64,000 bases of DNA from a virus. The stretch is from the IMG/VR virus record IMGVR_UViG_3300006112_000008, positions 62,001 through 126,000 of that record; one strand, written 5' to 3'. The notes under the pieces were generated by a model that worked only from the letters and a program-made list of their open reading frames with translations, made no database searches and was not told the DNA's origin. Of the stretch, positions 1,178-62,839 are shown in pieces (within the stretch, counting starts at the first letter, position 1; each line of letters begins with the position of its first letter). Both the position numbers and the translations under genes were made by a program.

Positions 1178-4100
1178 TTAATAATTGCGACCAATTAACT
1201 GAAGTGTGGTGGTAGCTGGGATAATATTATAGTCAGTGCTGTTGCTAGGATAGAAAGTAGCTGACCAAGTATAGCTACCTCCGTAATCATACTCCGCATA
1301 ATCTGGGGCATAAATGAATGTACCAGGAACAGAAGCAGTGGCTCCATAAGCCCCCGTAAACCAGGGAACACCTACGTGAGTTATTTGTGGCCAAGTAATT
1401 ACCGGATCTTGTTTGGGTATACCTAGCGTAATATATATTACCTGTGCGCTGTATACCAAATTATCGGGAGATATAGATATCGAGAAAAGTCTATCTATAT
1501 CATTACTGCTTGGGTTGCCAACTATGTTTCCATTTGCACTTATCGATAATCCTTCAGGCAACCCTATTGCCTGAAATCCAAATGGAGGATTATCTGTGGT
1601 TATTGAAATTAATGGATTATCGTCTGTGTATGGTCCTGAATTTAAATAAACAGAAGGCATAATAGTGTATACATTCACATATACAGGGAAAGAATAATTT
1701 AGGCCCGGAGGTTTTACATAACTAACCTGACTTGTTTGGCTAAGGACTGGAATATTTACTGCTACCCCTGTTATGGTTACTAAGTTTGTTGTTGCTGGCA
1801 CTACATTTATATGCACGGTTTTCGTGACGGGTATAAAATCACTTGAGTTTGGCGTGAAAGTGACGTGTAGCGGAATATTTGTACCAACCATTAAAATTGT
1901 TCCTGGGACGGGATCATATACGTATTTACCCAAAACGTCAGTTGTGGCATTCAACTGGGCTCCAGGAATTAACTGTGTTTTATAAACTATATCTGCAGGA
2001 TTATCCCAATTAAGTTGTGGTATGCCTTTCTGAATACTCAGTACAAAATGGAATGCGCTTGATAATGTCCCATTATTATTAGCATATACAGTGACATTAT
2101 AAATCGCGTTTAACTGACTAGCTACAGGGGTACCTATAATATTTCCGTTGGTGTTTATAGATAGGGTATTTGGTAAACCTTGAGCGATGAAACCGGAAGC
2201 CAAGACATCCGTGTTTACTGTAAGTAGCGGATTATTGTCTGTGTATGGCCCCGCAGCCAGATAAACAGAAGGCAAGAAATTATAATATGTACCTGTTGAG
2301 CCTGTTGAACCGGTATGTGATTGATATATAGCTTGAGTTGTAGAAATTCCTGTTATTGCTATCGGGCCCCCTGCTGGGTTTACATTTATATTTACTGATG
2401 CCTCGGCTGTGTAATAGTCTACAGACGTAGGGGTAAATACAGTATTCAATGTGTTATGGATATGATTTAATACTGTCCCTGAGGCTGGAGAATATGTAAA
2501 AGTTCCGTCTACGTTTGAAGAGGCATTTAATTGGTCTGTACTCAAGGGAGTACCATAAGTTATTGGATTCGGAGAAGACCAAGTTAATACTGGGTGATTT
2601 TTCGGGGTTAAATCTAAAACAAAATTATAAGGAGGAGACTTCAAATAAAATGACCTTGGGCGATTATTTTGGTAATTATCATTACCTTGAGCGTATAGAG
2701 ATATATAATATACCTTATTCAAATCTTGCGTACTTGGTGTACCTATGATATTTCCTAGTCCTCCCACAGTTAAAGAAGAAGGTAGTCCTGTTGCGCTGTA
2801 TGTATATACAGTAGAAGCAGCACCAAAAGAAAACAACGGGTTGCCTCCTGTGTAAGGTCCATTGTTTAAGTATTCAGAAGGATTAGGACTATATACAGGC
2901 CCGGAGGGTCCTGTGGCTGCAGAATAATATGAATTTAAAAAGCTTGCTGGGGTAAATGAAGTGATTTTATTAATCAATACAGTTAAATTGTTTGTAACTG
3001 TAGCTGAACCATAGTCTTCACTGTCTGGGGTAAATACTGCTGTTATGGTGTTATTGCCTACGTTGAATACTGTGCCGTAATCCGGGGTATATGTGAAAGA
3101 TCCCGCCACGTCAGCTGTTGCGTTTAATTGCACTTCGGTTATAGGTGTACCATAAACCACAGGATCTAGTGCAGGCCATGTAATATTGGTGGGTATTGGT
3201 TGTATAGATAGCGTAAAATTGAATGGAGGGGGATCGTTATAATGAGCACCGGATTGTGGATAATAAACAACAGTATTAACTAAATTTATAGTAACGTTGT
3301 ATGTTTGGTTTATTTCTGAAATCTGCGGATAGCTACCAACAATCTTTCCAGTATTAGTTATTGTTAAAGAATTTGGTAGTCCTGTGGCAGTAAAAATATA
3401 ACCACCAAAGTTGTGATAATCCGCAAGCGAAATTAAAGTATTTACAGTAAATAAGGGGTTATCTTCTGTATATGACGAGTTTAAATAAACAGAAGGTAAT
3501 ATGTTATATGAAGGACCTGAACCTCCAGTAGCTCCTGTACTAGACTCAAAAGTTTGGTCTGAAGATAACCCTGTTATGAGGTTAGGCGTAATAACAAGAG
3601 ATACAGATTTTGTGGAGCCTGCTACATTTATATCTGACGATACGTATTCCGCGGTTAGAATGTTTGTTCCTACGTTCAATACATCTCCTAATTGATAATT
3701 ATAAAGTAATACTCCACCCTCGGTGTATATATCAAACGATGCATTTAATTGCTGGTCTGTTAACGGGGTACCATAAATTATAGGATCTGGGGTGTCCCAA
3801 AATACATGTGACTTTCTTGGTTCAAATGCCAGTATGCAATTGTATGGGGGAGATTGGTTTCCTAAAGAATCCACAGCAGTTATAGACAACCCATAGCTCT
3901 TGTTTAGCATATTAGGTAAAACTGTTCCAATTAAGGCTCCACTGTTATCTATTGTTAGTAGTGGGGGAAGCCCAGGGTAATATGGAGGAGTTAGTGTGAT
4001 TGGTAAATCCGGCCATGCAGGGCCTGATGAGCCTGATGAGCCTGTAGGACCTGGAAATGTTGTGGAATATAAAGATATTTCCCAGCTAGAAAATGTTCCA

Positions 4101-7100
4101 CCATTACCCCCAACACTGCTAACTGATATCGTCATACGGTTTCCGCTATAAATAGCAGATATTGTTCCTATCATATAGCTGAGGTTTATTCCTCCTGTGT
4201 TTGTAACCATGACACTATCCCCAGCCGCAAAAGATCCTATAGTATTAACAGTAAATGTTCTTGTCCCTGTGCCTACTTGTATTGTTGTGTTTGAAGTAAC
4301 TCCGAAATACCCTAAGTTGGATTGAGAGGCTCCTGTTGGGCCTGTGCCTGCTGTAAAGCCAGCGATAGCAAATTTTGTGGTTGGATTAGCGGAGGATACT
4401 AAAGCTAACGGGCTAAGGTCTGAAAATTGCTTATATAAAACGAAGCTAGGATAAAAATTGTATATGGGTGGATTTATATTTGACGCGGGGTAAAAATCAA
4501 CAGTTACGTCTGGAAATAACCCATATATCAAATTTGATAATACAGTAACTTGATTTGTTTTTTGTGTGGGTAGATAATCTAAACTTGTAGGATTGTAATA
4601 GGCGGTTAGTGTGTCAACACCTATTGGAGGTAGGTATCCCGCCGGGGGAGAATATGTTATATTCCCAGAAGCTTGGGTGGTCGCATTTAACTGAAACTCA
4701 TTAAGTCGCTGACCATAAACCATTGTGTCTGGTGTGGGCCAATCTATCGTCGCATGTACGGCACTAAAAGATAATACGAAAGTAAATATATTAGAGCTAC
4801 CTGCAGGGTTCGAAACTCTCGCGGATATGGTGTAATGTAAATTTATATCATCGTACGAAGGATAGCCCACTAAATTTCCGTTGGGATTAAAGTGCAGACT
4901 AGTAAAGTGTCTGGGTGTAATGCTCGTTATCTCAATACTTGTTGGATCGTTTGTTACAGATAAACTTAACAAAGGATTATCATCAGTATACTCTCCCGGC
5001 CCCAGATAAACAGAAGGTAGGAAATTATAAGATGGTCCCGTATTCCCTGTGGCTCCTGTATAAGATTCGTATGTTTGATTTGTTGAAATTCCTGTTATGC
5101 TGGGCAGTCCCCAATATTGAATATCGTATTGATTATTAGAAGCGCCTCCTAAATATTGATTTTCAATCACAACAGAAAATACACCTGAAGAATTAGTGCT
5201 TGCGGGAGTGCCTGTGAAATTGCAGTTAAATCCAGGAAAACCATTGTAAGAAACACCGTCGGGCCATGTACCGCTAATATTGTAGAATATGGCGTTATCT
5301 GCGGAGGTTATTTTTTTACAGACTGTATGATTCTCAAGCATCACAATAGATTGATCTGCAGTATCAGAAACCACTATTGAGCAAGTACCTGTACCATAGT
5401 AGCCATATTCAGATTCTACCGAAATGGTCACATTGTATGTTCCTGTTTGGCTAACCGGTCCTCCCACAATTTGTCCCGACTCTGGAACTATACTTAAAGA
5501 AGGAGGTAACCCTACAGCAGAAAATAGTATCGGATTTTGAGTAGCATAAACACTAAACAATGGGGAGTCTGTGGTGTATTCTCTATTGTTGTAGTCTGGA
5601 GGATTAATATAGTAAATATTTTGGCTTAATGGTGTAGTTATTTGGGGTGTGGGTGAATTAGGTAAATAATTTAAGTTTAAAGAAAGGGGCATTTGTGTGC
5701 TTCCTTTATTTGCAAACAAAGTTAATGGGTAATTTGCCGCATGGGTTAATCCACTAACGGTACCATAAATATTGCAGGTTGCTCCTGTAGCCCCAGTAAA
5801 ATGAAGTCCAGGAGGTAATGGGCCAGTATAACCATAACTGTCGGCTTGTCCTAATCCTGATATCTTATAACAGTAGGGGGTATTTAAAAACACACCACCA
5901 TTCAACGGAGAAGAAGAAATATATATTTTAAACGAAGATATATATCTAGCTCCTGAGGAAGTACCTGCGATAACCTGCACATTATACGTACCCTCAACAT
6001 CGTTAGCTGCACCTATAACTTTTCCGTCTTGTGTTATACTCAAGCCCCTAGGTAATCCAGAGGCTAAATAAAAGCTTATAGGTCTAGCTGTGAGTATTTG
6101 TAATAGTGGTGCGTCAGCATTAAAAGTTATCGTGCTATAGCCACCAGAATAGACTATATAAAATAATTGATCTTGAGCTGGATAAGTTATTTGTAGTGAC
6201 GGAGAATATATAAAATTAAAAAATCTATTGGTTATTAAACCGGCATTATTTATGGATAATGTGATATATTGTTGAATTTCATTAGTCTGATTAAGAATTC
6301 CTGAAGAATAGATGTGGCAAGAGCTATTTGCCTGACTAGAAATATTTAAAAATGAAGGTAAATTTAATATGGAGAAAGACACATTTAAACTAGCACCTAA
6401 GGAGCTTAAATCACTAAAAGTGTAGCAAAATCCTGTTCCATAATCCGCAATGATTTCAGATATTTCTTGAGATAGGTTGATATTAAAAGTAACTGACGTA
6501 GTACCTACAGCATTAACTGCGTTTATTGTAACTACATGGAGACCTAGACTTGCATCATCTGAAATCTGCCCAGTAATATTTCCATTGTTATCTATGCTTA
6601 ACCCTAGGGGAAGTGTTCCGTTATTGTCATTAAATGAAGTTGCCCCTAACGCAGAAACTGTAAATAGTGGATTTACTGAAGTAAATTGTGTATTGCTACC
6701 TATCGGGTTTTTAAAGTCCGGCGGATATAGATTAATAACAGTGGAATTAGTGGGGTAATTTATTATAGGTGTAACGATATAAGGTATCGTATATGACACA
6801 AGCCTGTAACTTCCACCATAAAGCTGTTGCTTAACAACAATATTTATTTCCGTTGAGGTGGTGTCATAATTCGTACCATAAAAATTAGGTACAGCTCCCG
6901 CAGAAGAGTGATTGAGGGTAGGATCAAAAAGTAACCAGTCTGGTAAAATTTGTTCTACTGTTTGCGATATTACTTCAGGGCCAACGATTATACTGTAATT
7001 AAACTGTTCTCCCTGTTTTGCATACGATGTAGCTATGCCAGTCTCGTTTATCTCTAATAATACATGTACAGGAGAAGAGCTGCCGGCGGAATTGTGGGCT

Positions 7101-9514
7101 ACCAAAGTCAAAGGATAAAAAGCAGGGTATACGGTATTGCTAGGCATCTTGAGCTTACCTATCAGCCCGTTGCCCCCCACGGATAATCCTGGAGGAAGAT
7201 TGTTTGTACCTGTAGGCCCTATACTTACACCACTTAAATTATTGTCTAAAGTTATACTATAACTGGTAGGATAATTCGATGCAGCTATGGGAATGAGGGG
7301 GGCACTCTTTGTAAAAGTTCTAGTGGTTAAAACCTGAGGGCCTCCGTCAGGAGGATAAATATTTATAACCTCGTTTTGTGTTGGATAATTAATTACCGGA
7401 GGAGCAAAATAGTCTATGGTTAACTGAAGGAAGTAATAAAGTGATCCGGATTTTCCAAAAACTGTAAAAGAATATACTTCTGAAGTATTTCCGTTCGGAT
7501 TTGAAGAATAAATTCTAGGAGAATTTGAGGATGTATCTATTGTTATCCAGCTTGGTGGAGTACCTGTAACTGTAAATTCTGTAGCCTCCGGCATGTTTAT
7601 AGGGTAGCTAAACGGTACACCGTAGTTCACAGAAATTACATCTTGAGTATTATTGACAGAAACACAATATGCTGCCGTTATGGTTGCTCCTGGCTCTGGT
7701 ATAGTCATTGGCGTTTGAACCGCATCAATAAGAACGCCATTTGAATAGTAATTTATAGGTGTGTTACTTGGAGTAGATGTGTTTGTTATTTCAAATGTAA
7801 CTTTCCCTGTATTCAAATGATCTATATCCTGTGAGCAAGGAATGAAATATATGGATTCAAATATATTGTAATCCTTGCAGGCGATTGTTCCTACACTTGC
7901 CCCATAGCTAATATCGCCTATACTATTTTTTATCTTTACAGAAGAAGGAACGAGTGTGGCTTGGTCTGAGGTGAATGCGGATACAGAATATGAAATAGCT
8001 GCTGGTGACGGATTGTATATAACAATTACCGAAGTTATGAATGTACCATACTGCTTGTCAGCATTATAGGCTTCTAGTGTGCCGTAGTTTAAAGTTGCGT
8101 ATGGCTGATTTTTATTAGCGGCGGCGGCGTTACTTCTAGTAATTGCGTCATTCAGTGCGTTTTTTATACCGTAGTCGTTAACGATAAAGTTATTTAAGTT
8201 TCCAGATAGGGCTGCGCATATATCATTAAAAGCTATATTTGATTGCGTGGTAACCCCAAGTATAACTTCATGGGTGGAAATAACTTCTTTTATTTGAAAA
8301 ACATAATTAATGGCCCCAGAGGTTATTGTTAATTCTCTTCCCTCATGGAAATACTTTTTAAACCCTCCTGAACACGTAGGTCCAACTGGTGTAGGTTTGC
8401 CATTTCTATACGCGCAAAAACTGGTTACTACAAAATGTGCGCTATTTATTAATCCAGTAGAATTATTTTCCGCGAAGGCAGATCCATTTATTTTTCCTAT
8501 TCCATAAGTCTGTTGGGGATTATTAACTACCTTGTAAAGTTCTGCTAAGGCATCTGTGGATCTATTGAGATAATTTGCAAAACCACTTATATTTTCAGGA
8601 GAGCATTTGGGACTGCAGTGATTGTTAAATACAAGTCCGTGCCCTCCCATATCAGAGGATATGGCATTGAAGGTATTGGTGTGTGCTGCTACACCATTTC
8701 TAGCAGGGATAGGTGTGGAGAAATTTGAATAATCAGTCTTTGTTTTTAGCTCTCCTGATGTGATCTCATTAAGGGTGTTGGCACTCAAAAGGTCTAACGA
8801 ATAGCAGTCGGATGGAGCTATAAACAAAGCCCCGGAAGAATTAGGGGAGCTGTTATTAACTGTATATATGTCTACTATGTCTCCGTCAGGGCAGGGGTTC
8901 CATAATCCCGTACCTAATCCTTTAGCTACATCTATATATAATTGATGTGTGCTATCAGTGGTAAATTCATTATTTGTTCCATTGTCTAAAATGACAGCTT
9001 CTCCAGCCCCGTAAGTTTTTATGTTTTGTAATATATGGCTGGCGGTGTATCCGTCATGGGCATATGTATCAAAGCTAAGCGAAGTTACTTTTCTGGGATA
9101 CCACACTATCAAGGAAGATAAAAATTCTGTTTGATCTGCTGTATATTCTACTGTACCGGAAAAGCTAGATAAAAAATTTATCTCATCGCCAAATATTAAT
9201 TTGATCACCCAGCCATCACCAGAATAGCTAAAAAAGCTTGTTTGCGTATTTGCTAAATGACTAATCGCAGAACTTAAAGGAAAACTTAAAGAGCCTATAT
9301 CACCATTATTAACTTCTGATAAGGCTATATTTATATCTCCATCAATGTTAGAGATACTAGAGATATATACTCTTTTTATATTTTTATCGTTAGTTACAAA
9401 CAGCGCGTCTAAAAAAGCCCCTTTAGGAATATCTAAAGACTGATTGGGGGCAACACTATCTTTAAAAGGATAGCTGATCAGGCTATTTGAACTTAAATAT
9501 TCTAACGCGGGCAT
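1178..9514 (-). CDS. Giant tail adhesin with tandem Ig-like (He_PIG-type) repeats, 2778 aa
   Basis: A very long beta-rich protein. The first ~150 residues carry the YLSSNSLISYPFKDS adaptor-like start shared in pattern with two neighbouring genes. The central and C-terminal parts hold at least ten segments of the form GLPxxLSIxxxGNIxGxP followed by a beta-rich tail ending in a YNVTI-like strand, the signature of putative Ig (He_PIG-like) domains. In the C-terminal 1200 residues these alternate with a second module (TWPxPxxxVYGTPLxxxQLNA...GTFTYxPxxGTVLNxGxNTL...FTPxxxDY), seen six times. Short collagen-like Gly-X-Thr tracts precede several modules. No catalytic motif is visible. Likely a long side fibre or adhesin that binds the host surface. 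Its position after the baseplate genes supports this; the receptor is unknown. Confidence 0.85.
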   Translation of the reverse strand: MPALEYLSSNSLISYPFKDSVAPNQSLDIPKGAFLDALFVTNDKNIKRVYISSISNIDGDINIALSEVNNGDIGSLSFPLSSAISHLANTQTSFFSYSGDGWVIKLIFGDEINFLSSFSGTVEYTADQTEFLSSLIVWYPRKVTSLSFDTYAHDGYTASHILQNIKTYGAGEAVILDNGTNNEFTTDSTHQLYIDVAKGLGTGLWNPCPDGDIVDIYTVNNSSPNSSGALFIAPSDCYSLDLLSANTLNEITSGELKTKTDYSNFSTPIPARNGVAAHTNTFNAISSDMGGHGLVFNNHCSPKCSPENISGFANYLNRSTDALAELYKVVNNPQQTYGIGKINGSAFAENNSTGLINSAHFVVTSFCAYRNGKPTPVGPTCSGGFKKYFHEGRELTITSGAINYVFQIKEVISTHEVILGVTTQSNIAFNDICAALSGNLNNFIVNDYGIKNALNDAITRSNAAAANKNQPYATLNYGTLEAYNADKQYGTFITSVIVIYNPSPAAISYSVSAFTSDQATLVPSSVKIKNSIGDISYGASVGTIACKDYNIFESIYFIPCSQDIDHLNTGKVTFEITNTSTPSNTPINYYSNGVLIDAVQTPMTIPEPGATITAAYCVSVNNTQDVISVNYGVPFSYPINMPEATEFTVTGTPPSWITIDTSSNSPRIYSSNPNGNTSEVYSFTVFGKSGSLYYFLQLTIDYFAPPVINYPTQNEVINIYPPDGGPQVLTTRTFTKSAPLIPIAASNYPTSYSITLDNNLSGVSIGPTGTNNLPPGLSVGGNGLIGKLKMPSNTVYPAFYPLTLVAHNSAGSSSPVHVLLEINETGIATSYAKQGEQFNYSIIVGPEVISQTVEQILPDWLLFDPTLNHSSAGAVPNFYGTNYDTTSTEINIVVKQQLYGGSYRLVSYTIPYIVTPIINYPTNSTVINLYPPDFKNPIGSNTQFTSVNPLFTVSALGATSFNDNNGTLPLGLSIDNNGNITGQISDDASLGLHVVTINAVNAVGTTSVTFNINLSQEISEIIADYGTGFCYTFSDLSSLGASLNVSFSILNLPSFLNISSQANSSCHIYSSGILNQTNEIQQYITLSINNAGLITNRFFNFIYSPSLQITYPAQDQLFYIVYSGGYSTITFNADAPLLQILTARPISFYLASGLPRGLSITQDGKVIGAANDVEGTYNVQVIAGTSSGARYISSFKIYISSSPLNGGVFLNTPYCYKISGLGQADSYGYTGPLPPGLHFTGATGATCNIYGTVSGLTHAANYPLTLFANKGSTQMPLSLNLNYLPNSPTPQITTPLSQNIYYINPPDYNNREYTTDSPLFSVYATQNPILFSAVGLPPSLSIVPESGQIVGGPVSQTGTYNVTISVESEYGYYGTGTCSIVVSDTADQSIVMLENHTVCKKITSADNAIFYNISGTWPDGVSYNGFPGFNCNFTGTPASTNSSGVFSVVIENQYLGGASNNQYDIQYWGLPSITGISTNQTYESYTGATGNTGPSYNFLPSVYLGPGEYTDDNPLLSLSVTNDPTSIEITSITPRHFTSLHFNPNGNLVGYPSYDDINLHYTISARVSNPAGSSNIFTFVLSFSAVHATIDWPTPDTMVYGQRLNEFQLNATTQASGNITYSPPAGYLPPIGVDTLTAYYNPTSLDYLPTQKTNQVTVLSNLIYGLFPDVTVDFYPASNINPPIYNFYPSFVLYKQFSDLSPLALVSSANPTTKFAIAGFTAGTGPTGASQSNLGYFGVTSNTTIQVGTGTRTFTVNTIGSFAAGDSVMVTNTGGINLSYMIGTISAIYSGNRMTISVSSVGGNGGTFSSWEISLYSTTFPGPTGSSGSSGPAWPDLPITLTPPYYPGLPPLLTIDNSGALIGTVLPNMLNKSYGLSITAVDSLGNQSPPYNCILAFEPRKSHVFWDTPDPIIYGTPLTDQQLNASFDIYTEGGVLLYNYQLGDVLNVGTNILTAEYVSSDINVAGSTKSVSLVITPNLITGLSSDQTFESSTGATGGSGPSYNILPSVYLNSSYTEDNPLFTVNTLISLADYHNFGGYIFTATGLPNSLTITNTGKIVGSYPQISEINQTYNVTINLVNTVVYYPQSGAHYNDPPPFNFTLSIQPIPTNITWPALDPVVYGTPITEVQLNATADVAGSFTYTPDYGTVFNVGNNTITAVFTPDSEDYGSATVTNNLTVLINKITSFTPASFLNSYYSAATGPSGPVYSPNPSEYLNNGPYTGGNPLFSFGAASTVYTYSATGLPSSLTVGGLGNIIGTPSTQDLNKVYYISLYAQGNDNYQNNRPRSFYLKSPPYNFVLDLTPKNHPVLTWSSPNPITYGTPLSTDQLNASSNVDGTFTYSPASGTVLNHIHNTLNTVFTPTSVDYYTAEASVNINVNPAGGPIAITGISTTQAIYQSHTGSTGSTGTYYNFLPSVYLAAGPYTDNNPLLTVNTDVLASGFIAQGLPNTLSINTNGNIIGTPVASQLNAIYNVTVYANNNGTLSSAFHFVLSIQKGIPQLNWDNPADIVYKTQLIPGAQLNATTDVLGKYVYDPVPGTILMVGTNIPLHVTFTPNSSDFIPVTKTVHINVVPATTNLVTITGVAVNIPVLSQTSQVSYVKPPGLNYSFPVYVNVYTIMPSVYLNSGPYTDDNPLISITTDNPPFGFQAIGLPEGLSISANGNIVGNPSSNDIDRLFSISISPDNLVYSAQVIYITLGIPKQDPVITWPQITHVGVPWFTGAYGATASVPGTFIYAPDYAEYDYGGSYTWSATFYPSNSTDYNIIPATTTLQLIGRNY

Positions 9515-17924: not shown

Positions 17925-18563
17925 TTATTTCCATCCTTCGTTAATTTTATCGCTTATCAATTTTATCCTTTGATTTGCTTGCGCTTCTGAAATATTTAAT
18001 TTCTTTGCTATGTTTTTTATAGGTAAAGTAGGTCTCCCTCCGAAACCTGTCATGTGTTCAAATATTAATTTATCTTTAGGGGTTAAATCGTGATAAACAA
18101 ATGCAACCCATTCATCATTAGAGCTATCCATGATTGTGGGAGTATTTAACATGTTATTAAAAGAAATTATGGATTTTTTGTTTTTAAGCAAATTATTAAT
18201 TGTTTTTATATTCATTCCTGAATAGTCGGATAGCTCTTCTACGGTGGGATTGCGCCCTAGCTCACTATCTAGTTGCTTTTCTATATTATTGAGTTTGTTT
18301 ATTGCAAATTGTGTATTTTCTGGAAGTCTCACAGAGCTGCCGTATTGCGTAGAAAGTCTAGATAATTTTTTTAAGCTATTAACAAGATGTGTGCTAAATT
18401 TACCCATGCTTGGAGAATAACTTTCTGCCGCACCTCTGGCCAATCTATGTGCCTCTATCTGTGCAGTAATAAAAGGAATATTTGTTGAATATTTTTTTGC
18501 TTCTGAATCTATGAGTTTTTTATGCTCAGTCAGCAGTTTATTTATTTCAGTGATATTTTGCAT
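17925..18563 (-). CDS. Sigma-70-like factor (regions 2.3-2.4, 3 and 4), 212 aa
   Basis: Residues ~49-82 (YSPSMGKFSTHLVNSLKKL...SSVRLPEN) align with sigma-70 region 2.3-2.4 (..G.KFSTYA.WWIRQAI...RTIRIP). Residues ~84-128 (INKLNNIEKQLDSELGRNPT then EELSDYSGMNIKTINNLL) align with region 3 (INKL.R..RQ..QE.GREPT.EELAE...M...KI). Residues ~158-208 (LTPKDKLIFEHMTGFGG...IKNIAKKLNISEAQANQRI) align with region 4 and its HTH. Region 1 and most of region 2.1-2.2 are shortened, and the region 2 tryptophans are missing. It sits between hub and wedge genes, an unusual place. It could direct late transcription by host or phage polymerase, or be carried in the virion; both are inference. Confidence 0.7.
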   Translation of the reverse strand: MQNITEINKLLTEHKKLIDSEAKKYSTNIPFITAQIEAHRLARGAAESYSPSMGKFSTHLVNSLKKLSRLSTQYGSSVRLPENTQFAINKLNNIEKQLDSELGRNPTVEELSDYSGMNIKTINNLLKNKKSIISFNNMLNTPTIMDSSNDEWVAFVYHDLTPKDKLIFEHMTGFGGRPTLPIKNIAKKLNISEAQANQRIKLISDKINEGWK

Positions 18564-35135: not shown

Positions 35136-36092
35136 TCAGGAGAACTGAATCTTAACAGCGCCCTTGACGTTGCCAATGGCGAGCGAGATGTTCATGTACT
35201 GGAAGTACTCGAGGAAGTAGGCTTCGTTTCTCATGAACACGGTGAGCGGCTGGAGTCTGTAGTACTTACCGAGGAACTCCTCAGAAGAGAAGAGATAGAT
35301 AGTACCATCAGGAACCAAGTCACGCTTGATCGTGTAGATGGGCTTCACGCCAAGAAGAGTCTTGGAGGGAAGACCATTGATAAACGTTTCCTGGGCGAGG
35401 TCACCACCAACTTCAGAACGACCCATCTTAACGAAGTCGTCCGCAGTAACGGTGTTCATGAGCATAACGCCCTTGCTCTCTCCACCATCAGGCTGCGAGG
35501 CACCAAAGGGAACCTGGAGGCGCTTGATAACCTTGAAGGCTTCAGCCACAGACTCACGAGTGATACCGCCGGAGATGCTAACGTTCTGAGGAAGGCCGAG
35601 ACCGTTCAGTGAGTTAGCTGTGTTGAGGGTACCAACAGAGCTGTTGATAGTGTTGATGAAGCTCGTGTCAATCTGCGTAGCGATATCCTTGGTGCTGAGC
35701 TCAAGCATGATAGCACGGATGTCGTAGTCGTATGTACGAAGCTTATCGATGTCCTTGCTGAACTTAGGCGAGAGGATGCGGCTGAAGTACGAAGGATAAC
35801 GGGTACCCTTGAACTGGAAGGCATCAGGAACAACACCAAGCGGGACGGAAACAGCAGGGGCTGTATCAGGCTCGCGATCGTTCCACTTAACAAGGAGCTC
35901 GGGATCCTGGGCCTTATCGAGCTCATCATTGCTGAGATCGATAGGGGTGAGGATCTTTTCAGCGAAGCTTTCTTCACGAAGCTTGTTGCGGGTGAACTGT
36001 TGAGCAGAAACAGCAGCCTGCTTCTCCTGTCCGGACTTCACCATCTCAACGAATGTGTCGTTGAACACTTTTACATCAGCGATTTTTTCCAT
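35136..36092 (-). CDS. Major capsid protein (HK97-type), 318 aa
   Basis: Pattern of an HK97-fold capsid protein: a helical N-arm, an E-loop-like segment, a spine helix (TRESVAEAFKVIKRLQVPFG), then a P-domain/A-domain beta run (KGVMLMNTVTADDFVKMGRS, LLGVKPIYTIKRDLVPDGTI, IYLFSSEEFLGKYYRLQPLT) and a C-terminal A-domain (YFQYMNISLAIGNVKGAVKI). It is strongly biased to G/C-ending codons unlike flanking genes, has an AAGGAG ribosome site, lies after scaffold and protease genes and is followed by a strong terminator. Cleavage by the nearby prohead protease is likely but no site is proven. Confidence 0.8.
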   Translation of the reverse strand: MEKIADVKVFNDTFVEMVKSGQEKQAAVSAQQFTRNKLREESFAEKILTPIDLSNDELDKAQDPELLVKWNDREPDTAPAVSVPLGVVPDAFQFKGTRYPSYFSRILSPKFSKDIDKLRTYDYDIRAIMLELSTKDIATQIDTSFINTINSSVGTLNTANSLNGLGLPQNVSISGGITRESVAEAFKVIKRLQVPFGASQPDGGESKGVMLMNTVTADDFVKMGRSEVGGDLAQETFINGLPSKTLLGVKPIYTIKRDLVPDGTIYLFSSEEFLGKYYRLQPLTVFMRNEAYFLEYFQYMNISLAIGNVKGAVKIQFS

Positions 36093-45953: not shown

Positions 45954-46922
45954 TCAAGATGGCTGTGTTGACTGTGAATCGTTATTTCGTGAAGATAGAT
46001 AGCCTGCACCTAAACCAATACCAGTACCAATTAAACTGTTTCTTAAAAGCCCTGTTCTAGCTGCACGGATAAAAGGATATGAAAGCTTTCGCCAGTTAGG
46101 GTAATTTATTCCAACAAGTCCAGGTTCTACCTGCTGTATCCTAGTACCTAATATTCTTTTTATTGCCTCTCTTGCAGGCCCTAAGAATGTTGCAGCTCCT
46201 CCGGCTCCCGCTCCCACAACACCAGCTAATGCCGGTCCAGCATAATTGTTATTACTATTTGAACTTACTAGTGCAGATAGTTCTCCTCCGGGCAGTGCGG
46301 TAGCGTAAGGATGGTTTTGTAAAATAGCTGAAGCAGAAGACAGCTCCATATCGTTTGGCTTAGATTCACTAGAAATTATTGGTGTAGCTGCTCCTGCAGC
46401 TCCTGCCAGTAATGCATTGGTTTTTGCATCTCCCCAGGCATGCGAAACAAGTCTATTACGGTAGGCTGGATTATTTATAGCTCTATCTAAATTTCTACCT
46501 AATTGAAAGGGACTGCGTAATTCTCCCCATCTATTGATAGGTAGTCTAGGTCCCAATATTCTAGCACCTGCCCCAACTAAAAAACCTGCAGGAAGACCCA
46601 CCAAACCTAACTTAAGCGCATTTTCAACTGCCTGCCTAGCTACGTTTTTCTTATTTCCCTGCGAATGTTTTATTCTTTCAACCGCAGCAGATATTTGATT
46701 CGCTCTGGTATTAGGGTCAGGAGAGATTGTAGCTAAACTAGGAGCTAGCTCTTTTAAGTAAGGCACAGCTCCCTGCATACTTGAGGGAAGATCCTCTGCC
46801 ACATCAGTAAAGCTATATTTACCAGGCTGCTGATAATAAATATTATCCCTAAGTACTTTTAGGGCTAAATATTTTTTAAGCAGACTATCCTTTTCAGGGG
46901 ATGTATTAGAATTCGAGGGCAT
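45954..46922 (-). CDS. Glycine-zipper membrane-like virion protein, 322 aa
   Basis: Overlaps the upstream 763-aa gene by 17 nt. Four hydrophobic Gly/Ala segments are seen: LGLVGLPAGFLVGAGARILG, ALLAGAAGAATPIISSE, YAGPALAGVVGAGAGGAATF and a final LIGTGIGLGAGYLSS, separated by basic loops. Such GxxxG-rich helices suggest membrane insertion or oligomeric pore formation. The tail is Ser/Asn/Gln-rich. It is probably an ejection or inner-head protein; no recognised family. Confidence 0.5.
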   Translation of the reverse strand: MPSNSNTSPEKDSLLKKYLALKVLRDNIYYQQPGKYSFTDVAEDLPSSMQGAVPYLKELAPSLATISPDPNTRANQISAAVERIKHSQGNKKNVARQAVENALKLGLVGLPAGFLVGAGARILGPRLPINRWGELRSPFQLGRNLDRAINNPAYRNRLVSHAWGDAKTNALLAGAAGAATPIISSESKPNDMELSSASAILQNHPYATALPGGELSALVSSNSNNNYAGPALAGVVGAGAGGAATFLGPAREAIKRILGTRIQQVEPGLVGINYPNWRKLSYPFIRAARTGLLRNSLIGTGIGLGAGYLSSRNNDSQSTQPS

Positions 46923-49197
46923 CTTCCTTACCCATGTTGATGTTTAATTCTGGGGATTTACGCTTAAGGAAGATGACTAATTCTCCAAGATTTTTAAATA
47001 CATTAGTGACCAACTCTGAGAGCTGGGGGAGGTCATTTCTTCCGTACATCTCCACAAATTTATCAGTATCCCAGTTAAGAAGGAAAATAATTCTGCCCAG
47101 TCTATCCATACCTTCTATTAACGACGGAATGTATTCTGTGATCTTGTCGCTGACACCTACATATTTAGCCAATGTGGCCATGGTCTGAACGTCGAATATT
47201 TCTTTCTGTCCGTTCTGAGCCATCTGGGCGGCCTGGTTTACATATTTAGGATCAATCTTGTTCTTAGGGCTGGACGGGTCCACTCCTTCAACTTCCGGCA
47301 TCACCGTTAAACCTAAGGCTGTAGGATCTCCTGTGTAGCGAATGTCTGCAGGGAGTCGACTCTCTTGACCAACTCCAACATATGTCGGCTGTCCCACCTG
47401 GTTGGTGTACGGCGCTTCCTCGTAAGGGATGGGATAATAGTCTCCTGTATAAGCAATTTTTACATGTCCTGAAATTGCCTTGGAGGGAGTGAGATTATCA
47501 ATAACTTCACAAGCCTGCTTGAAGTCTAATCCAACTTCAGTAACCATGGCAATCTTGGCCTTCATTGGATTGTCATACTTTTTCTTCGCTCCGGCAATAT
47601 CGCTAAAGTACTCACTGCCGTTTGTTCTTACAGTCATCGGGAAAATATTATTCCTAGTAAGAAACGAATTTAATGCCCATACACCGCCCGGCCTATTCTC
47701 TAAATACTTTTCGTGAGCTTTGGCTCTCTCGGCTTGAGCTTTATCTGCTTCACTTTTATCTTTATTTGAGGCATCTAAAGAAACATATGGAGCTTCAACA
47801 CCACAATAACCATATTCATTCATTGGGTGGAACTTCACCTCTAAAAGCTTATAACCTGAAGGTACATATACCGTGTGCCCATGATAATCAAGCCCACCAT
47901 TAGGTTTCTTGGTCATTACGAGCAATATCTCTTTGGCTTTTCTGGGATGTCTATAATAGTTTCCACGAGGAAGATTATGAACACTGCCGGGCCTATCTGT
48001 CATTCCATGATTATGATCTTGATACTCATAACCGGTCTTAGGATCCTCGTGAATAGAAAACGGCTCTACACTAATTCTTCTGATCCCTTGCGCATCTTTA
48101 AAGTTAGCATTAATTCTAAATGGCTGAGTAGCCTGCATTTGCTCGTTAATAAGAACATAAACCGAAGTATAGCTAGGACGAGCTTCAGCGGGATCCACCA
48201 TCATCTTGTGGACTAAAGAATAGTCTGCGACTTTGAGTTGATCTTTAACAAAAACCATCTTAGTGTCTGCCACATAAGCGGTTCCTTTGTCTTCAGCATC
48301 AAGGTTGATAATTATCGCATCATCCGTGGCAAAATCTTGTTGAAGCTGCTTAGGACGAACAAGGATTAAACCGTAGTTAATATTTCCTGTTGTTGTGATA
48401 TATGGATAAAAGCCAGACTCTACAGGATTTTGGAATGTCTTTACATAATCAACAGCGCCAAACTTAGATTTTTTATCTACAGGACGTTTGTCAATTATTA
48501 TAAATCCCTGAGTCATAACGTCTTTTCTTTGCTTTTCATCAAGCTTCAAGACCTCAGGTTTTTGGTCTTTCATCACCACCTTAACATCATTTCCCTCTCT
48601 ATATTTGTCACCATCTTCTGTTTCTACAACAGCTTCTGCAACTTTCTCTATAGGATAGAAGCGTAGTACAGACTCGCAAAAGTCTGCGTCCTTCTCTAAA
48701 AGCTCTGTGAATGCTCTCTTTGTTTTATTATCAGAATCCTTTACGTAATCTATGCAAGAGGCTATGGTGTACTTACCTGTACGAGGAGGAATAGTCATCT
48801 GGCGATAGTCGCCTTGAGTCATATCCTGTAGAACCTTCTGTCTTGGTTCTTTTGCTACGGCACCCAAATTAGTGGTTTCGTCTTTTAAGAATAACTCAGC
48901 AAAGTCTTCATCCAGAGGATAAAACTGCTCGTTATTTTTAGAATAAAGAAGATCGAGATTCTTTACTTTACCGTCCACGAAGAAAGCAGGTACATAAAGG
49001 ATTTGTCCTCCATGAGAGCGAAATCCAAAAACACCAAGAGCCTTGGTGTTGTCCTCGTTCTTTTTTACGATCTCAAAGCCTATTAAAAACGGAAGAAGAT
49101 TCTTCAAACTGTCCTGAAGCTTGTTATAGGCAAGCTGAAAAAATGACTGCTCTAATGAATCGTCGCCCGCCTTTTTTGTTTTAGAAAAATTTGCCAT
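46906..49197 (-). CDS. Large unknown protein in the RNA polymerase/head cluster, 763 aa
   Basis: Not recognised. Mixed alpha/beta with Lys/Asp/Glu bias. The N-terminal ~120 residues include FGFRSHGGQILYVPAFFVDG and YSKNNEQFYPLDEDFAELFL. The centre (~260-540) is beta-rich (NYGLILVRPKQLQQDFATDD, NAVYVLINEQMQ-like) with Tyr/Gly/His motifs (GYEYQDHNHGMTDRPGSVHN). The C-terminus is helical (DRLGRIIFLLNWDTDKF). There is no polymerase motif and it does not look like the missing middle of beta. It follows the beta-prime C-terminal gene after a 74-nt gap with a TATAAATT box. A virion or polymerase-associated protein is possible. Confidence 0.5.
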   Translation of the reverse strand: MANFSKTKKAGDDSLEQSFFQLAYNKLQDSLKNLLPFLIGFEIVKKNEDNTKALGVFGFRSHGGQILYVPAFFVDGKVKNLDLLYSKNNEQFYPLDEDFAELFLKDETTNLGAVAKEPRQKVLQDMTQGDYRQMTIPPRTGKYTIASCIDYVKDSDNKTKRAFTELLEKDADFCESVLRFYPIEKVAEAVVETEDGDKYREGNDVKVVMKDQKPEVLKLDEKQRKDVMTQGFIIIDKRPVDKKSKFGAVDYVKTFQNPVESGFYPYITTTGNINYGLILVRPKQLQQDFATDDAIIINLDAEDKGTAYVADTKMVFVKDQLKVADYSLVHKMMVDPAEARPSYTSVYVLINEQMQATQPFRINANFKDAQGIRRISVEPFSIHEDPKTGYEYQDHNHGMTDRPGSVHNLPRGNYYRHPRKAKEILLVMTKKPNGGLDYHGHTVYVPSGYKLLEVKFHPMNEYGYCGVEAPYVSLDASNKDKSEADKAQAERAKAHEKYLENRPGGVWALNSFLTRNNIFPMTVRTNGSEYFSDIAGAKKKYDNPMKAKIAMVTEVGLDFKQACEVIDNLTPSKAISGHVKIAYTGDYYPIPYEEAPYTNQVGQPTYVGVGQESRLPADIRYTGDPTALGLTVMPEVEGVDPSSPKNKIDPKYVNQAAQMAQNGQKEIFDVQTMATLAKYVGVSDKITEYIPSLIEGMDRLGRIIFLLNWDTDKFVEMYGRNDLPQLSELVTNVFKNLGELVIFLKRKSPELNINMGKEDALEF

Positions 49198-51135: not shown

Positions 51136-51462
51136 TTATTTTTTGCTGGTTATTTTATCTAACAAATCTTTTACAGGAGAGGCTACTTTTAATTTATCCT
51201 TATCTATTTGATTTAATGCCTCTAAGTCCTGAAAAGCTCCATGCATTAATTTTCCCTCTAAATTATCATGGGCCTTATCTTGTTCTGATGTATCTAAATC
51301 TCCAGTATGCTCGTCCGTACTTTCTTCTGAGTTAATGACTCCTGCTGATTGCACTGCCTGCATATCCGCAAGTTTTTCTCGAATATAACAAGCATAGTCA
51401 AAATTTGCATCTTCTGGAGTGAAGCTGTCCAAATAATTGCTAACTTTTTCTAAGGAGCTCAT
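51136..51462 (-). CDS. Small acidic protein between polymerase genes, 108 aa
   Basis: Not recognised. Helical and acidic (SLEKVSNYLDSFTPEDANFD, SEESTDEHTGDLDTSEQDKA), ending in basic LDKITSKK. It overlaps the previous stop (ATGA) and ends one base before the beta-prime C-terminal gene. It may be a polymerase-associated or assembly factor by location; no motif supports this. Confidence 0.5.
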   Translation of the reverse strand: MSSLEKVSNYLDSFTPEDANFDYACYIREKLADMQAVQSAGVINSEESTDEHTGDLDTSEQDKAHDNLEGKLMHGAFQDLEALNQIDKDKLKVASPVKDLLDKITSKK

Positions 51463-52055
51463 TGTTGTGGTTTTCCTGATCCCATGGGAGCTGTATAAAT
51501 ACCACCTTGCCCCATAGCGGATTGCTGGGCTTGCTCTTGCTGAGCCTGATCTTCTGCTTGCTGCTGCTGCTTCTGCATAGCTTCCATTTTTTTATTATGG
51601 GTGTCCGCAAGTTGTTTAACCTTAAGCAAGCTATGGGTAGCCTTGCCGCCACTCGAAAGATCTAAGAGTTCTCTGACAGAAAGTGTTACCTTTGTGTTAT
51701 CGAGGCTGTTCTCCGCATTAACATTTCCTGCGGCTTGCTGAGGTTCCTGCTCGGCTTGTTCTGCCGGTTGGCCTTCCTGTGGTTGCTGAGGCTGCGCTTG
51801 TTGTTGACCTACCTGCTGGATCTGCTGGGCAAGCTGTTGCATGGCCTGGAGCTGCTGGTCGGGCGGAAGCTGTTGAAGTTGCTGCAACGCCGGGGAAATC
51901 TGCTGCTGAAGTTCGGGAGGGAGTTGAGAGATCATACCCATAAGCTGTTGCTGAGCTTGTTGCAACTGTCCCTGATCTTGTTGCGCCTGGGGATTTGGGA
52001 TGAACGCCTCTTTAACTAGGCCATCATAAGATTCTATAAGGGATTGAATATTCAT
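51459..52055 (-). CDS. Gln-rich low-complexity protein, 198 aa
   Basis: About one third of the residues are Gln, mostly in residues 20-110 (QQLMGMISQLPPELQQQISP, LQQLPPDQQLQAMQQLAQQI). A short compact segment (~115-150, VTLSVRELLDLSSGGKATHS) is followed by another Gln-rich helix and a GGIYTAPMGSGK tail. The N-terminal SLIESYDGLVKEAF resembles the short helical starts of head proteins. Probably a coiled-coil or phase-separating structural component; function unknown. It overlaps both neighbours. Confidence 0.55.
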   Translation of the reverse strand: MNIQSLIESYDGLVKEAFIPNPQAQQDQGQLQQAQQQLMGMISQLPPELQQQISPALQQLQQLPPDQQLQAMQQLAQQIQQVGQQQAQPQQPQEGQPAEQAEQEPQQAAGNVNAENSLDNTKVTLSVRELLDLSSGGKATHSLLKVKQLADTHNKKMEAMQKQQQQAEDQAQQEQAQQSAMGQGGIYTAPMGSGKPQQ

Positions 52056-52282: not shown

Positions 52283-55270
52283 TTAAGATAAGTCAATATT
52301 ATCTCCTATGTCTAGCTTTCCGGCCATAAAATCGGCAACTACCTGGGCTTCGCTAGAGTAGTGCATAGGTTTATTATGTTTATTCTCGTAGCTAGCCGCA
52401 AATAATCCCACAGCCGCCTCATTTGATGGGGTATATATAGGGCTAAAAGTTCTATGATAAATTAAGTTTTTCTCAGGGAATAACTTTTCTTTAACTTCTT
52501 CTTTAGCTGCGTCTCCTGCCGGAACTTGCACATTCAATTGGTCTCCGTCAGAATCAGCACCATAACCTTTAAACACCAAGGGGTTGAGCTTTATAGAGAA
52601 GTCTTTAGGATCCGGGTTAGGCCTAAGGTAGAATCCTTGAAAGTTATATTTGGATAACTGCGGGTCTCTGGTAACAATTCCTGGGCGATCCTTGAGTTCT
52701 TCTTGTAAAGCCAAGGAGGCTAAAGGGTGTTTAGACTTAACATAGTCTCTTGCCTTTGTGGCTGGTACTCCCTGCCTTACTAATCTCCGAATAACAAAAG
52801 GAGTGTATATATTCCACAAAATAGCCTGAGGAATTGCCGCTTCGTTCAATTGAAGATTTCCATCCGGCACAAGTACCCCTCTACCCACGAGGTCTATTGG
52901 TTTATTCACAACCTTTGCCTGGAACATTGAGCTTTTTGCACTACCTCCTTGTGTGCCCAGTGTTGTGGCTAACAAACCTTTAAAGTTTTTTTCTTTGCTC
53001 CTGGTGCTGATTGGTTCGCCTAAACCATACACAGCTCTAACGCCCTCGTATAATTTTTTGCGAGCCTCTCCTTTTAATTCCACTGGAGTATGCTCGTCTA
53101 TACCATTAAAAGATTTATTAACCAGCATCAAATCTTTATATAGCTCGTTAACATCAGCGCTCATGATTTGATTACCTTGAGCAGTAATAGGTCTATATTG
53201 GGCAGGGATAACCGGAATTTTAGAAATTAATAAATCTTTAGGATGTAAATCCTGCCTCTTCAACATGGTTAAGAAAGACAAAACTTTAACAGCTGAGTCT
53301 CTCTCTGTTTTTCTGTTAGACTTAATGTAACCCTTCAGCTCGTTTATTTTATCGTCTAGCTTTATACCATTTAAAGCTTTCTCTAACGATCCATCAGCAA
53401 GCATCTCTTCAAACTTATTTTTAGTAACTCCTAAAAGTTTACGAAGTGGTTCTTCACTAACAGGATTGGGGACTTTAAATGAAAGATTGATATGATTATA
53501 GTTATCTCCATAAATACCTACATTTACAGGGTCAAAAAGTCCGTTATTCTCAGCGACTAATTCACCATTTTTTAATTTGTAGGTTAGAGGTTCATGAATT
53601 TCACCGTGACTAATTTTTTCTATATCCTTATCTGTTTGGGGAAGAATATTAAACTTAGTTCCCTCTTGATTAACGTGCACACCAGAACCTTCTAGGTGAG
53701 AGATAAACTTGTTAAATATAAATGGAACTTTTGGTGGAGGTGGAGCATAACCTAATTTTATTGCATTCCAGAACTCGTCGTTTTTTGTTCCTCTAACAAC
53801 GGCAACATCTTTTAAAACTTCTTTAGCGTCGTTAGAAAGTGCCACCGTGGTTGCAAGATTTCCCAAACGCTTACTCTTTTCTTCTGTGCCCGCCTTAGAG
53901 GGTTGCATATTGATATCGTAGGTAGTTCCTGACGATCTGGACGAAATTTTATCTTCAGCTATATGATGGAGTCGAGTGTAGTAAGATGGTCCGGTGAATA
54001 CTTCTATGTGTTTACCAGAAACAGGATCGTATAATTTCTCTGTGTCTTTTATGCCGTGTTTCTCTAATTCTTTTATTGTTTTTTCAACAACGCTACCATC
54101 AGAGAATGGTGTGATTTTTAGACTATGTCCTAATTTTTGAGCAACCTTGCCCATTGCCATGGTCGTGATGAGCCCCGGAGCAACACGGCTAGTAACACTC
54201 ATCGAATTGAGCAATACATCTATAGGTTTACCGTCTTCTCCTTGAGGCATTTCACTATTGCTAACAATTCTAACCACCCCCTTTGCTCCGAAAGGATTAG
54301 ATAGTTTGTCAGCTGTGGCCATAGGCCTACGAGTCTTTATAGTTACTGTGATTAATTTACCTGTGTTGCTAACATCCACAACTTCACCATCGTGCTCGTA
54401 AGTCCAGGTCTCTGTGATATCTGAATACGCGTTTTTTAATGCTCTGGAAAGTTTACCTAATTGAATCTCTAATGACTTTAATGTTTTAGGCTGATAGGCA
54501 AGAATCAATGGATCTCCGTGCTTTACTACACTTCCCCTTTTCACAACACCAGAGCTATCTAATTTACCTAACTGGTCATTAAAGTATTTATTAGGAAACA
54601 GAGAAACATATTTATCTTTTTCTGTTTCTATACCTCTAGCTATCTCCAATCTAACTGGAACAAGTTGCTCTGCTTCTAATTTTTTTGCAGCATCTTCGCT
54701 AATAACAAGTGCGTCCTCAAAGTTATACGATCTATACGGCATCACGGCCGTTTTGAGATTCATACCCAAGGCCATATTGCCATGACTGTCTGAGTAGTTA
54801 GAGGTAGCTAATAAACTTTCAGGTTTAACAGAATCACCTACTTTAACAGTAGGTGTATGGTGCATATAACTTTCTCTACCTACTAAATAATTTTGATAAA
54901 GCGGATGTTCGTGCTCTTTACCAGAGTTGTCTTTTATAACAATCTTGTCGTTGTCTACTGAAGTGACTTTTCCTGAAATATTGCTGCGTATACTAACAAG
55001 CTTGTGTCCAAACTGTTCAACAAAGCTCTTGTGTTCCTGACTTTCGCTAGATTGAACCAACGGGGCTTCTCTGTTAACCAGAGTCATGGCCTGCAGCGAA
55101 CTCTTGTCTCCGATAAGCACACGAGCACCGGAAACGCTGCTCAGGCTAGGTATGAGATTTGTAACAGGAGAGAAGAAATCCGTGGTGCTCGGAATCTTAT
55201 AATCTACTTTAGTTGATCTTGGGACTTTTTTGAGTTTTCCGTGGTCCAACACGAATTTGTACTCTTTCAT
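52283..55270 (-). CDS. RNA polymerase beta C-terminal/beta-prime N-terminal fusion, 995 aa
   Basis: Residues ~45-540 follow bacterial beta from about E. coli position 620 to its end: LKTAVMPYRSYNFEDALVIS (172-191), the active-site lysines in DKLSNPFGAKGVV (K322, K330; compare K1065 and K1073), DVLLNSMSVTSRVAPG (351-366) and HHIAEDKISSRSSGTTYDIN (435-454). Without a stop it continues as beta-prime: ISHGEIHEPLTY (553-564), IPVIPAQYRPI (685-695), LVGRGVLVPDGNLQLNEAAI (794-813), and the catalytic loop GADSDGDQLNVQ (904-915), which keeps the three Asp of NADFDGD (906, 908, 910). It ends ADFMAGKLDIGDNIDLS, just before the TTVGR site. The beta-prime N-terminal zinc ribbon is missing and the whole protein has no Cys. 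Confidence 0.92.
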   Translation of the reverse strand: MKEYKFVLDHGKLKKVPRSTKVDYKIPSTTDFFSPVTNLIPSLSSVSGARVLIGDKSSLQAMTLVNREAPLVQSSESQEHKSFVEQFGHKLVSIRSNISGKVTSVDNDKIVIKDNSGKEHEHPLYQNYLVGRESYMHHTPTVKVGDSVKPESLLATSNYSDSHGNMALGMNLKTAVMPYRSYNFEDALVISEDAAKKLEAEQLVPVRLEIARGIETEKDKYVSLFPNKYFNDQLGKLDSSGVVKRGSVVKHGDPLILAYQPKTLKSLEIQLGKLSRALKNAYSDITETWTYEHDGEVVDVSNTGKLITVTIKTRRPMATADKLSNPFGAKGVVRIVSNSEMPQGEDGKPIDVLLNSMSVTSRVAPGLITTMAMGKVAQKLGHSLKITPFSDGSVVEKTIKELEKHGIKDTEKLYDPVSGKHIEVFTGPSYYTRLHHIAEDKISSRSSGTTYDINMQPSKAGTEEKSKRLGNLATTVALSNDAKEVLKDVAVVRGTKNDEFWNAIKLGYAPPPPKVPFIFNKFISHLEGSGVHVNQEGTKFNILPQTDKDIEKISHGEIHEPLTYKLKNGELVAENNGLFDPVNVGIYGDNYNHINLSFKVPNPVSEEPLRKLLGVTKNKFEEMLADGSLEKALNGIKLDDKINELKGYIKSNRKTERDSAVKVLSFLTMLKRQDLHPKDLLISKIPVIPAQYRPITAQGNQIMSADVNELYKDLMLVNKSFNGIDEHTPVELKGEARKKLYEGVRAVYGLGEPISTRSKEKNFKGLLATTLGTQGGSAKSSMFQAKVVNKPIDLVGRGVLVPDGNLQLNEAAIPQAILWNIYTPFVIRRLVRQGVPATKARDYVKSKHPLASLALQEELKDRPGIVTRDPQLSKYNFQGFYLRPNPDPKDFSIKLNPLVFKGYGADSDGDQLNVQVPAGDAAKEEVKEKLFPEKNLIYHRTFSPIYTPSNEAAVGLFAASYENKHNKPMHYSSEAQVVADFMAGKLDIGDNIDLS

Positions 55271-61997: not shown

Positions 61998-62199
61998 ACA
62001 AATCTATATTCCGTCTTTAAAAATAAAAGGAACATACCTAGAAGAAATCGGCGGAGAAAAAGAAAAAGTGACCTACCCTGGTAAGCCTATAGAGGTAGAG
62101 TTAACAGCAGAAGATTTCTTATCAGAAGAAGATTATCACAGTGCCTGGATAATAATAACAAGAGCAGTGCAAAAAAAGCTTTCAAATGGAGTTTCCTAA
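61987..62199 (+). CDS. Small protein before beta N-terminal gene, 70 aa
   Basis: Not recognised. Beta-rich start (QIYIPSLKIKGTYLEEIGGE) with VTYPGKPIEVELTAEDFLSE, then a helix (HSAWIIITRAVQKKLSN). It overlaps the polymerase beta N-terminal gene by 14 nt, so the two are co-translated. A small polymerase-assembly partner is possible by position. Confidence 0.45.
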   Translation: MQAKQIYIPSLKIKGTYLEEIGGEKEKVTYPGKPIEVELTAEDFLSEEDYHSAWIIITRAVQKKLSNGVS

Positions 62200-62839
62200 A
62201 AATACCAGAGATTTTTTTGATCCGCATGCACTGAATAAGCTTATTCAGAAACATGTGCTAGAAGGTTTTAAGTCTAAGTTAGGGCAGATAGAAACAAACG
62301 ACCACAAGTTAGAGGTAGAGAACATAGAGATACACCCAAAGCCATTCTCTATAGAGGACCAGAAAAAGGCTATCTTAGAAAAGCGTGATCTTACTTACCC
62401 AATAAAGGGAGATGTGCACTTGGTGGATAAACGCACAGGTCAGCGGGTAGAATCCAAACATATTACCATTGCGAATATTCCTTTTGTCACAGACAGGAAT
62501 ACGGTTGTGTATAACGGCAGTGAGTATGAGCCTATTCATCAGCAGAGATTGCTTCCTGGGGTTTACTCCAGGATTCGCCAAAGCGGAGAAGCAGAAGCTC
62601 ACATCAATCCGGCCCCTAGAACAGGAATGGGCGGAAGAATATTATTTTATCCAGACAAACAACTTTTTGTTTTGATGCTTCAGAACACGCAAATAAAGCT
62701 TTATGGTGTGATGAGAGATCTCGGCGTGTCTGATAGCCAAATGCAAGCCGCCTGGGGAAATGAGATTTATTTAGCCAATAAGAAAATGTACACAGGCGAC
62801 GAAATAGACAAGTTGTACAATAAAATATTTTTAAGTTAA
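62186..62839 (+). CDS. RNA polymerase beta subunit, N-terminal part, 217 aa
   Basis: Matches the first ~230 residues of bacterial beta. LTYPIKGDVHLVDKRTGQ then VESKHITIANIPFVTDRN and TVVYNGSEYEPIHQQRLLPG then VYSRIR correspond to ..V.L...d...g..k...v..geiPlMTd.GTFViNGtErVivsQl.RSPGvy. GRILFYPDKQLFVLMLQNTQ aligns with the beta protrusion strand. The protein then ends (KIFLS, TAA), so the beta lobe, the rifampicin region and fork loop (about E. coli 240-620) are not encoded here. It is on the opposite strand to the other polymerase pieces. No start codon problem: ATG 62186 follows a coupled overlap. Confidence 0.85.
   Translation: MEFPKNTRDFFDPHALNKLIQKHVLEGFKSKLGQIETNDHKLEVENIEIHPKPFSIEDQKKAILEKRDLTYPIKGDVHLVDKRTGQRVESKHITIANIPFVTDRNTVVYNGSEYEPIHQQRLLPGVYSRIRQSGEAEAHINPAPRTGMGGRILFYPDKQLFVLMLQNTQIKLYGVMRDLGVSDSQMQAAWGNEIYLANKKMYTGDEIDKLYNKIFLS

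Follow-up and report, generated by a model that had tools for sequence, protein, structure and literature searches.

A 64,000-nt stretch of viral DNA (positions 62,001 to 126,000 of the IMG/VR record IMGVR_UViG_3300006112_000008; hereafter, the window) carries one long reading frame in which the C-terminal part of an RNA polymerase (RNAP) beta subunit continues directly into the N-terminal part of beta'. Such a chain could be a chance join, a variant of one of the known phage or bacterial polymerases, a product of joining fragments that had already been separate, or the rest of a larger fusion that was cut afterwards. As argued below, it is most probably the catalytic core of a four-chain virion RNAP with a sigma-like partner, and the uncut middle of an ancestral beta::beta' fusion.

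The 995-aa frame noticed in the preliminary description is indeed present, on the minus strand (see the table). When its two halves are compared with known families separately, residues 1 to ~535 are recognised as beta and residues ~537-995 as beta' by both Pfam and PDB searches. In Pfam, RNA_pol_Rpb2_6 covers residues 96-459 (3e-54), Rpb1_1 residues 655-725 (3e-9) and Rpb1_2 residues 856-928 (7e-12); PDB beta chains match residues 20-552 (E down to 6e-42), and PDB beta' chains match residues ~603-994 (E down to 1e-31). K322 and K330, initially proposed as active-site lysines, align with K1065 and K1073 of E. coli beta, and the beta' part does extend to the catalytic GADSDGD loop, with D906, D908 and D910 in the columns of the E. 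coli beta' DxDGD motif. The beta share, described at first as the last third of the subunit, is in fact its last half. The chain contains no cysteines. Structure prediction, which had been suggested as a check, recovers a beta fold (AlphaFold, pLDDT 78.7, pTM 0.61): among solved structures, bacterial RNAP beta chains match best, T. thermophilus RNAP beta being the first (E 1e-34), and the listed matches cover the beta part. A fold search in BFVD yielded beta or beta' homologs, and a fused protein was not noticed among the 50 matches listed.

Features of the fused polymerase and its probable partners. Coordinates refer to the window unless marked as those of the record.
Feature	Coordinates	Strand	Basis
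betaC::beta'N fused RNA polymerase chain, 995 aa	52283..55270	-	Pfam, PDB, alignment, AlphaFold
beta part, residues 1-535 (E. coli beta ~630-1342), with K322 and K330	53666..55270	-	
beta' part, residues 536-995 (E. coli beta' to ~552), without zinc ribbon, with GADSDGD loop	52286..53665	-	
Fusion joint, residues 533-540, without linker	53651..53674	-	alignment: E. coli, Arash, D69, single-chain relatives
Catalytic metal-binding loop, D906-D910	52541..52555	-	invariant in alignment
beta'C chain, 620 aa	49272..51134	-	Pfam Rpb1_5 1e-14; Arash gp216 E 7e-63
betaN1 chain, 217 aa (E. coli beta 1 to ~343)	62186..62839	+	Arash gp206 residues 12-250, E 1e-21
betaN2 chain, 230 aa	record 128287-128979	-	Arash gp206 residues 227-472, E 5e-19
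Sigma-like protein, 212 aa, probable initiation partner	17925..18563	-	Pfam Sigma70_r3 8e-11; homolog of Arash virion protein gp10
Counterpart of gp218, a protein of the Arash virion; adjoins beta'C (shared gene order)	46906..49197	-	homology; Arash proteome (PMC10585845)
Major capsid protein homolog (Arash gp226)	35136..36092	-	

The order of beta and then beta' in one frame agrees with the preliminary description, although the joint, placed there near codon 545, lies at residues ~533-540 by alignment. Compared with E. coli, the beta side of the joint is the native C-terminus ('LGINIEL'), while the beta' side begins ~20 residues inside the native N-terminus ('IKIALASPDMIRSW...'), the N-terminal zinc ribbon of beta' being deleted. 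The proposed survey of related phages was made by scanning for motifs distant from the joint and with a cellular beta' query, and the joint was found in one frame in all 65 phage loci that have the whole region; in three bacterial controls from the same run, beta and beta' were unfused. These 65 are independent IMG/VR contigs plus the cultured Salmonella phage Arash and Vibrio phage D69, with a few near-duplicates (e.g. L032/L096) and with one intron-bearing locus, L052, counted among them. An assembly artefact at the joint, which the preliminary description itself had named as a possible refutation, or a chance join of neighbouring genes can thus be dismissed, as the same intact frame is present in 12 other, independent records (67-100% identity), the joint is universal among the whole-region loci, and the fused Arash protein was detected by mass spectrometry with 100% coverage (PMC10585845).

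The rest of the enzyme is encoded in three further genes. It had been proposed to consider the 995-aa chain together with a 620-aa and a 217-aa chain, and these two are beta'C and betaN1, respectively; the fourth piece, betaN2, was missing from that set, its gene being situated 2.3 kb past the window end. In the beta'C chain, the second zinc site still has its four Cys, and the His of the trigger loop is likewise retained. No conservation is seen at H526 and S531, residues of the E. coli rifampicin pocket. The Pfam Rpb2_3 match of betaN2 (3e-6) reaches the fork-domain cut-off. Residues 483-1517 of Arash gp206 (1525 aa) match the 995-aa chain, and residues 227-472 match positions 128982-128284 of the record on the minus strand. 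Since all four chains correspond to stretches of gp206 or gp216, together they make up one beta and one beta'. This arrangement recurs: among 16 records of the four-chain type, betaN1 is a gene of its own in 15 and betaN2 in 14, the misses being partial contigs (the search also took in L068 and L219, both of other types). We looked for alpha and omega and found neither, and no second polymerase set was found in the 182-kb record, which may be incomplete. In the gap between betaC::beta'N and beta'C there is a Gln-rich low-complexity ORF (51459-52055, minus strand); a low-complexity ORF occurs in the same gap in L068.

Concerning the use of the enzyme, the most informative relative is Arash, which also shares homologs of the major capsid protein, portal and terminase with the window phage, as well as the gene order around beta'C. 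Its gp206 tops the proteins detected in virions, with 100% coverage, 128 unique peptides and 3516 spectra, which is still compatible with cleavage at the joint, and gp216 and the sigma-like gp10 are strong virion proteins too (PMC10585845). A gp10-type sigma-like gene was found in 11 of the 14 genomes tested, in every layout described below, with the three misses being partial contigs; in the sigma-like protein of the window phage, region 2 is not recognisable. By analogy, the polymerase is probably packaged in the virion of the window phage, packaging having been shown for Arash only, whose enzyme is 32% identical. We think it unlikely that the polymerase is instead a non-virion enzyme making late transcripts. 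As the Arash authors point out, an abundant intracellular enzyme could contaminate virions; however, the strong virion signals include those of gp206, gp216 and gp10, while gp196, the product of a second sigma gene in Arash, is missing from the virion protein list (PMC10585845), and in the window the fusion and beta'C genes share their strand with the virion gene cluster. This second sigma-like gene (Arash gp196; L028:22657-23694) encodes a protein with a clear region 2, which may serve later transcription; no homolog of it was found in the genome of the window phage. The window also holds an ORF of 2,778 aa (1178-9514, minus strand), located at the far edge of the cluster of virion genes.

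Among the relatives, the joint is retained in all layouts, be it one, two, three or four chains. Layout I, as in the window, comprises betaN1, betaN2, betaC::beta'N and beta'C; layout II, as in Arash, beta::beta'N and beta'C; and layout III, beta fused to the first ~100 aa of beta', the middle part of beta', and beta'C. In layout S the whole enzyme is a single chain of 2,026-2,241 aa (2,612 aa in L123). L219 is an intermediate, broken at betaN|C, with betaN in one gene and betaC::beta'N in another. The label of the N1/N2/betaC layout rests on betaN being absent from the betaC chain, and L052 obtained it through its intron, its true layout being II.

The order of events was addressed with an IQ-TREE tree of 28 rows and 987 columns, in which bacteria are thinly sampled and Helicobacter, Wolbachia, AR9 and phiKZ are left out. 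The fused RNAPs of phages group in a single clade (100/99), separate from bacteria and from the unfused mReC-type phages, and the initial suggestion of a distinct phage polymerase class is borne out. The first branch is the single chain of L144, the remainder being united at 100/100. The layout I clade (100/100) groups with L219, L068 and L080 at 100/99, whereas the layout III clade is weak in the main tree (69/38) and has an SH-aLRT value of 98 in a quicker one. Among the single chains L044, L046, L175 and L123 the tree gives no firm order. A single clade of all single chains is rejected (p-AU 0.006), and a single clade of all lineages with a broken beta' is not (p-AU 0.51).

As the fused enzymes form one clade and a single chain branches first, an end-to-end beta-beta' fusion has probably been re-broken later; on phylogenetic grounds, fusion followed by breakage would be the simplest order of events, and probably the actual one. 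Hence the earlier statement that only the inner halves of the subunits are joined is correct for the window chain, but this chain is probably what survives of a whole beta::beta' fusion that subsequently lost its ends, given that some relatives have a single chain of 2,026-2,612 aa and that one of these branches first. Since the deep single-chain nodes lack resolution, re-fusion of beta'C in some single chains is possible. If such re-fusions accounted for all single chains, the ancestor would have had two chains, beta::beta'N and beta'C. That both broken lineages, which are tenable as one clade, have their beta'N|C break at an identical position would fit this scheme; it seems improbable nonetheless, as with the single chains not forming one clade and L144 branching first it would need several re-fusions. 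We consider it very unlikely that the four-chain form is ancestral and that the fusion arose between already separate beta and beta' fragments of the phiKZ/AR9 type. The beta' break does lie right after the DPBB region, at the site of the phiKZ/AR9 and cyanobacterial breaks (PMC7598289), and AR9 betaC begins near the betaN|C break seen here. Against this, the four-chain type is a nested clade (100/100) whose close relatives keep an intact beta::beta'N, L219 is an intermediate, and the first-branching member is a single chain, so that the tree already points to nesting.

Complete cellular rpoB-rpoC fusions are present in Helicobacter and Wolbachia, where beta and beta' are joined end to end in operon order and alpha is retained. 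In contrast, the window enzyme is viral, no alpha was found, the zinc ribbon is lost and the fusion appears to be re-broken; the chain is incomplete and is positioned outside the sampled bacteria, Helicobacter and Wolbachia not being among them. Phages of the mReC group (Weinheimer & Aylward 2020, PMC7481178) likewise encode a bacterial-type beta and beta', but at the mReC-type loci of our survey a beta' of ~900 aa is followed by a separate beta of ~1000 aa, that is, the order is opposite and the genes are unfused. The mReC selection required NADxDGD (PMC7481178) and separate beta and beta' genes of at least 800 aa each, whereas here the genes are fused and split and the motif is GADSDGD. In the tree, the two types form separate clades, with the mReC rows being loci of the mReC gene layout from our survey, not from the list of Weinheimer & Aylward.

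The polymerases of phiKZ/AR9-type jumbo phages resemble the window enzyme in its probable virion use, its split subunits, the apparent absence of alpha and omega, and the beta' break after the DPBB (PMC7598289). No beta-beta' fusion and no sigma factors have been described for them (PMC7598289, PMC7824862); their subunits are split but never joined, while here they are joined, and the second, non-virion RNAP set was not found in the possibly incomplete record. YerA41, the sole sequence from the phiKZ/AR9 side in our tree (AR9 and phiKZ not included), is distant and has a long branch, and the Arash and single-chain queries reach it at only ~24-26% identity. The single-chain RNAPs of crAss-like phages and P23-45 (PMC10770324) also carry both barrels in one chain, and in P23-45 the enzyme is used in the virion; however, crAssphage RNAP is reported to lack recognisable homology to the beta/beta' HMMs (PMC7481178), whereas the window chain matches Pfam Rpb2_6 at 3e-54.

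The closest counterparts are Arash gp206 with gp216 and the enzyme of D69, which have the same beta::beta' joint, the same beta'N|C break and a sigma-like partner. The identity to the window enzyme is 29-32%. In Arash and D69 the complete beta resides in one chain of about 1525-1545 aa, while here the beta N half is encoded in two further genes. The fusion, regarded initially as unfamiliar among phages, is therefore real, yet it also exists, with full beta::beta'N, in these two cultured phages. The Arash authors annotate gp206 only as 'beta' and leave the fusion unmentioned (PMC10585845), and in the literature searched, which excluded subscription papers, we found no earlier description of a class of beta::beta' phage fusions. 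We define here the Arash-type fused-RNAP clade; the window phage has the joint in one frame, belongs to the supported clade and carries a gp10-type sigma-like gene.

The enzyme is best read as a sigma-dependent, alpha-less virion RNA polymerase. The 995-aa chain would work with betaN1, betaN2 and beta'C as a phage-encoded polymerase of the bacterial type, its beta half giving the two active-site lysines and its beta' half the metal-binding aspartates, so that both double-psi barrels would lie in one polypeptide. Judging by homology, beta'C would close the active site via the bridge helix and trigger loop, and betaN1 and betaN2 would provide the protrusion, lobe and fork. The covalent joint plausibly takes over the role of the alpha dimer as an assembly platform. 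If Arash is a guide, the packaged enzyme would be injected and directed by the virion sigma-like protein to early phage promoters. The phylogeny suggests that the ancestral end-to-end fusion was broken at beta'N|C and then at betaN|C and betaN1|N2.

There is disagreement on whether phage polymerases made of several pieces are relics that predate the cellular beta and beta' or broken-down copies (PMC7824862 versus PMC7598289), and a primordial origin was proposed for those of the phiKZ group (PMC7824862). It is rather likely that the present clade is a further class of multi-chain phage RNAPs, alpha-less and sigma-dependent, which descended from a single-chain beta::beta' and was repeatedly re-broken with the aid of inserted introns, inteins and domains. 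If so, fragmentation can give rise to multi-piece viral RNAPs, and a primordial origin is not required. Because the fusion point stays fixed while the enzyme ranges from one to four chains within a single clade, it is possible to trace in which direction and by what mechanism it was broken, and since a whole phage family, including the cultured Arash and D69, shares the joint, the origin of multi-piece viral polymerases becomes testable. The clade also offers a natural alpha-less, possibly single-chain, RNAP of the bacterial type with its own sigma-like partner.

That an intron or intein caused the breaks seen in the window was considered and rejected: Rfam yields no match in the window, start and stop codons at the break ends are clean, and the betaN1 gene runs on the other strand.

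Various insertions are seen in the relatives. In L219 (325-2694), a 335-aa insert with an inorganic pyrophosphatase domain (PF18823, 2.6e-49) occupies the N1|N2 break site of the window lineage. In the 2,612-aa single-chain RNAP of L123 (9962-17800, plus strand), an intein of ~515 aa that has a LAGLIDADG and an intein splicing domain is inserted at the metal-binding catalytic loop of beta'. Intein-type inserts also occur in L031 (12774-14495 and 16825-19164), both at the catalytic loop, where the reading frame is broken, and near the beta'C trigger loop. Two large inserts are present in the beta chain of L080/L126, whose beta'C carries a Hint-type insert. In L052 (9050-9962), the beta::beta'N gene harbours a group I intron, scoring 107.7 bits in Rfam, together with an HNH homing endonuclease, and a homing-endonuclease gene is found at a similar place in Vibrio phages D148 and D181. 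Finally, a fused phage RNAP (53% identity) is carried by L091 (RXKB01000001.1), a 226-kb contig in a Candidatus Dependentiae MAG, which hints at either a host or a binning error.
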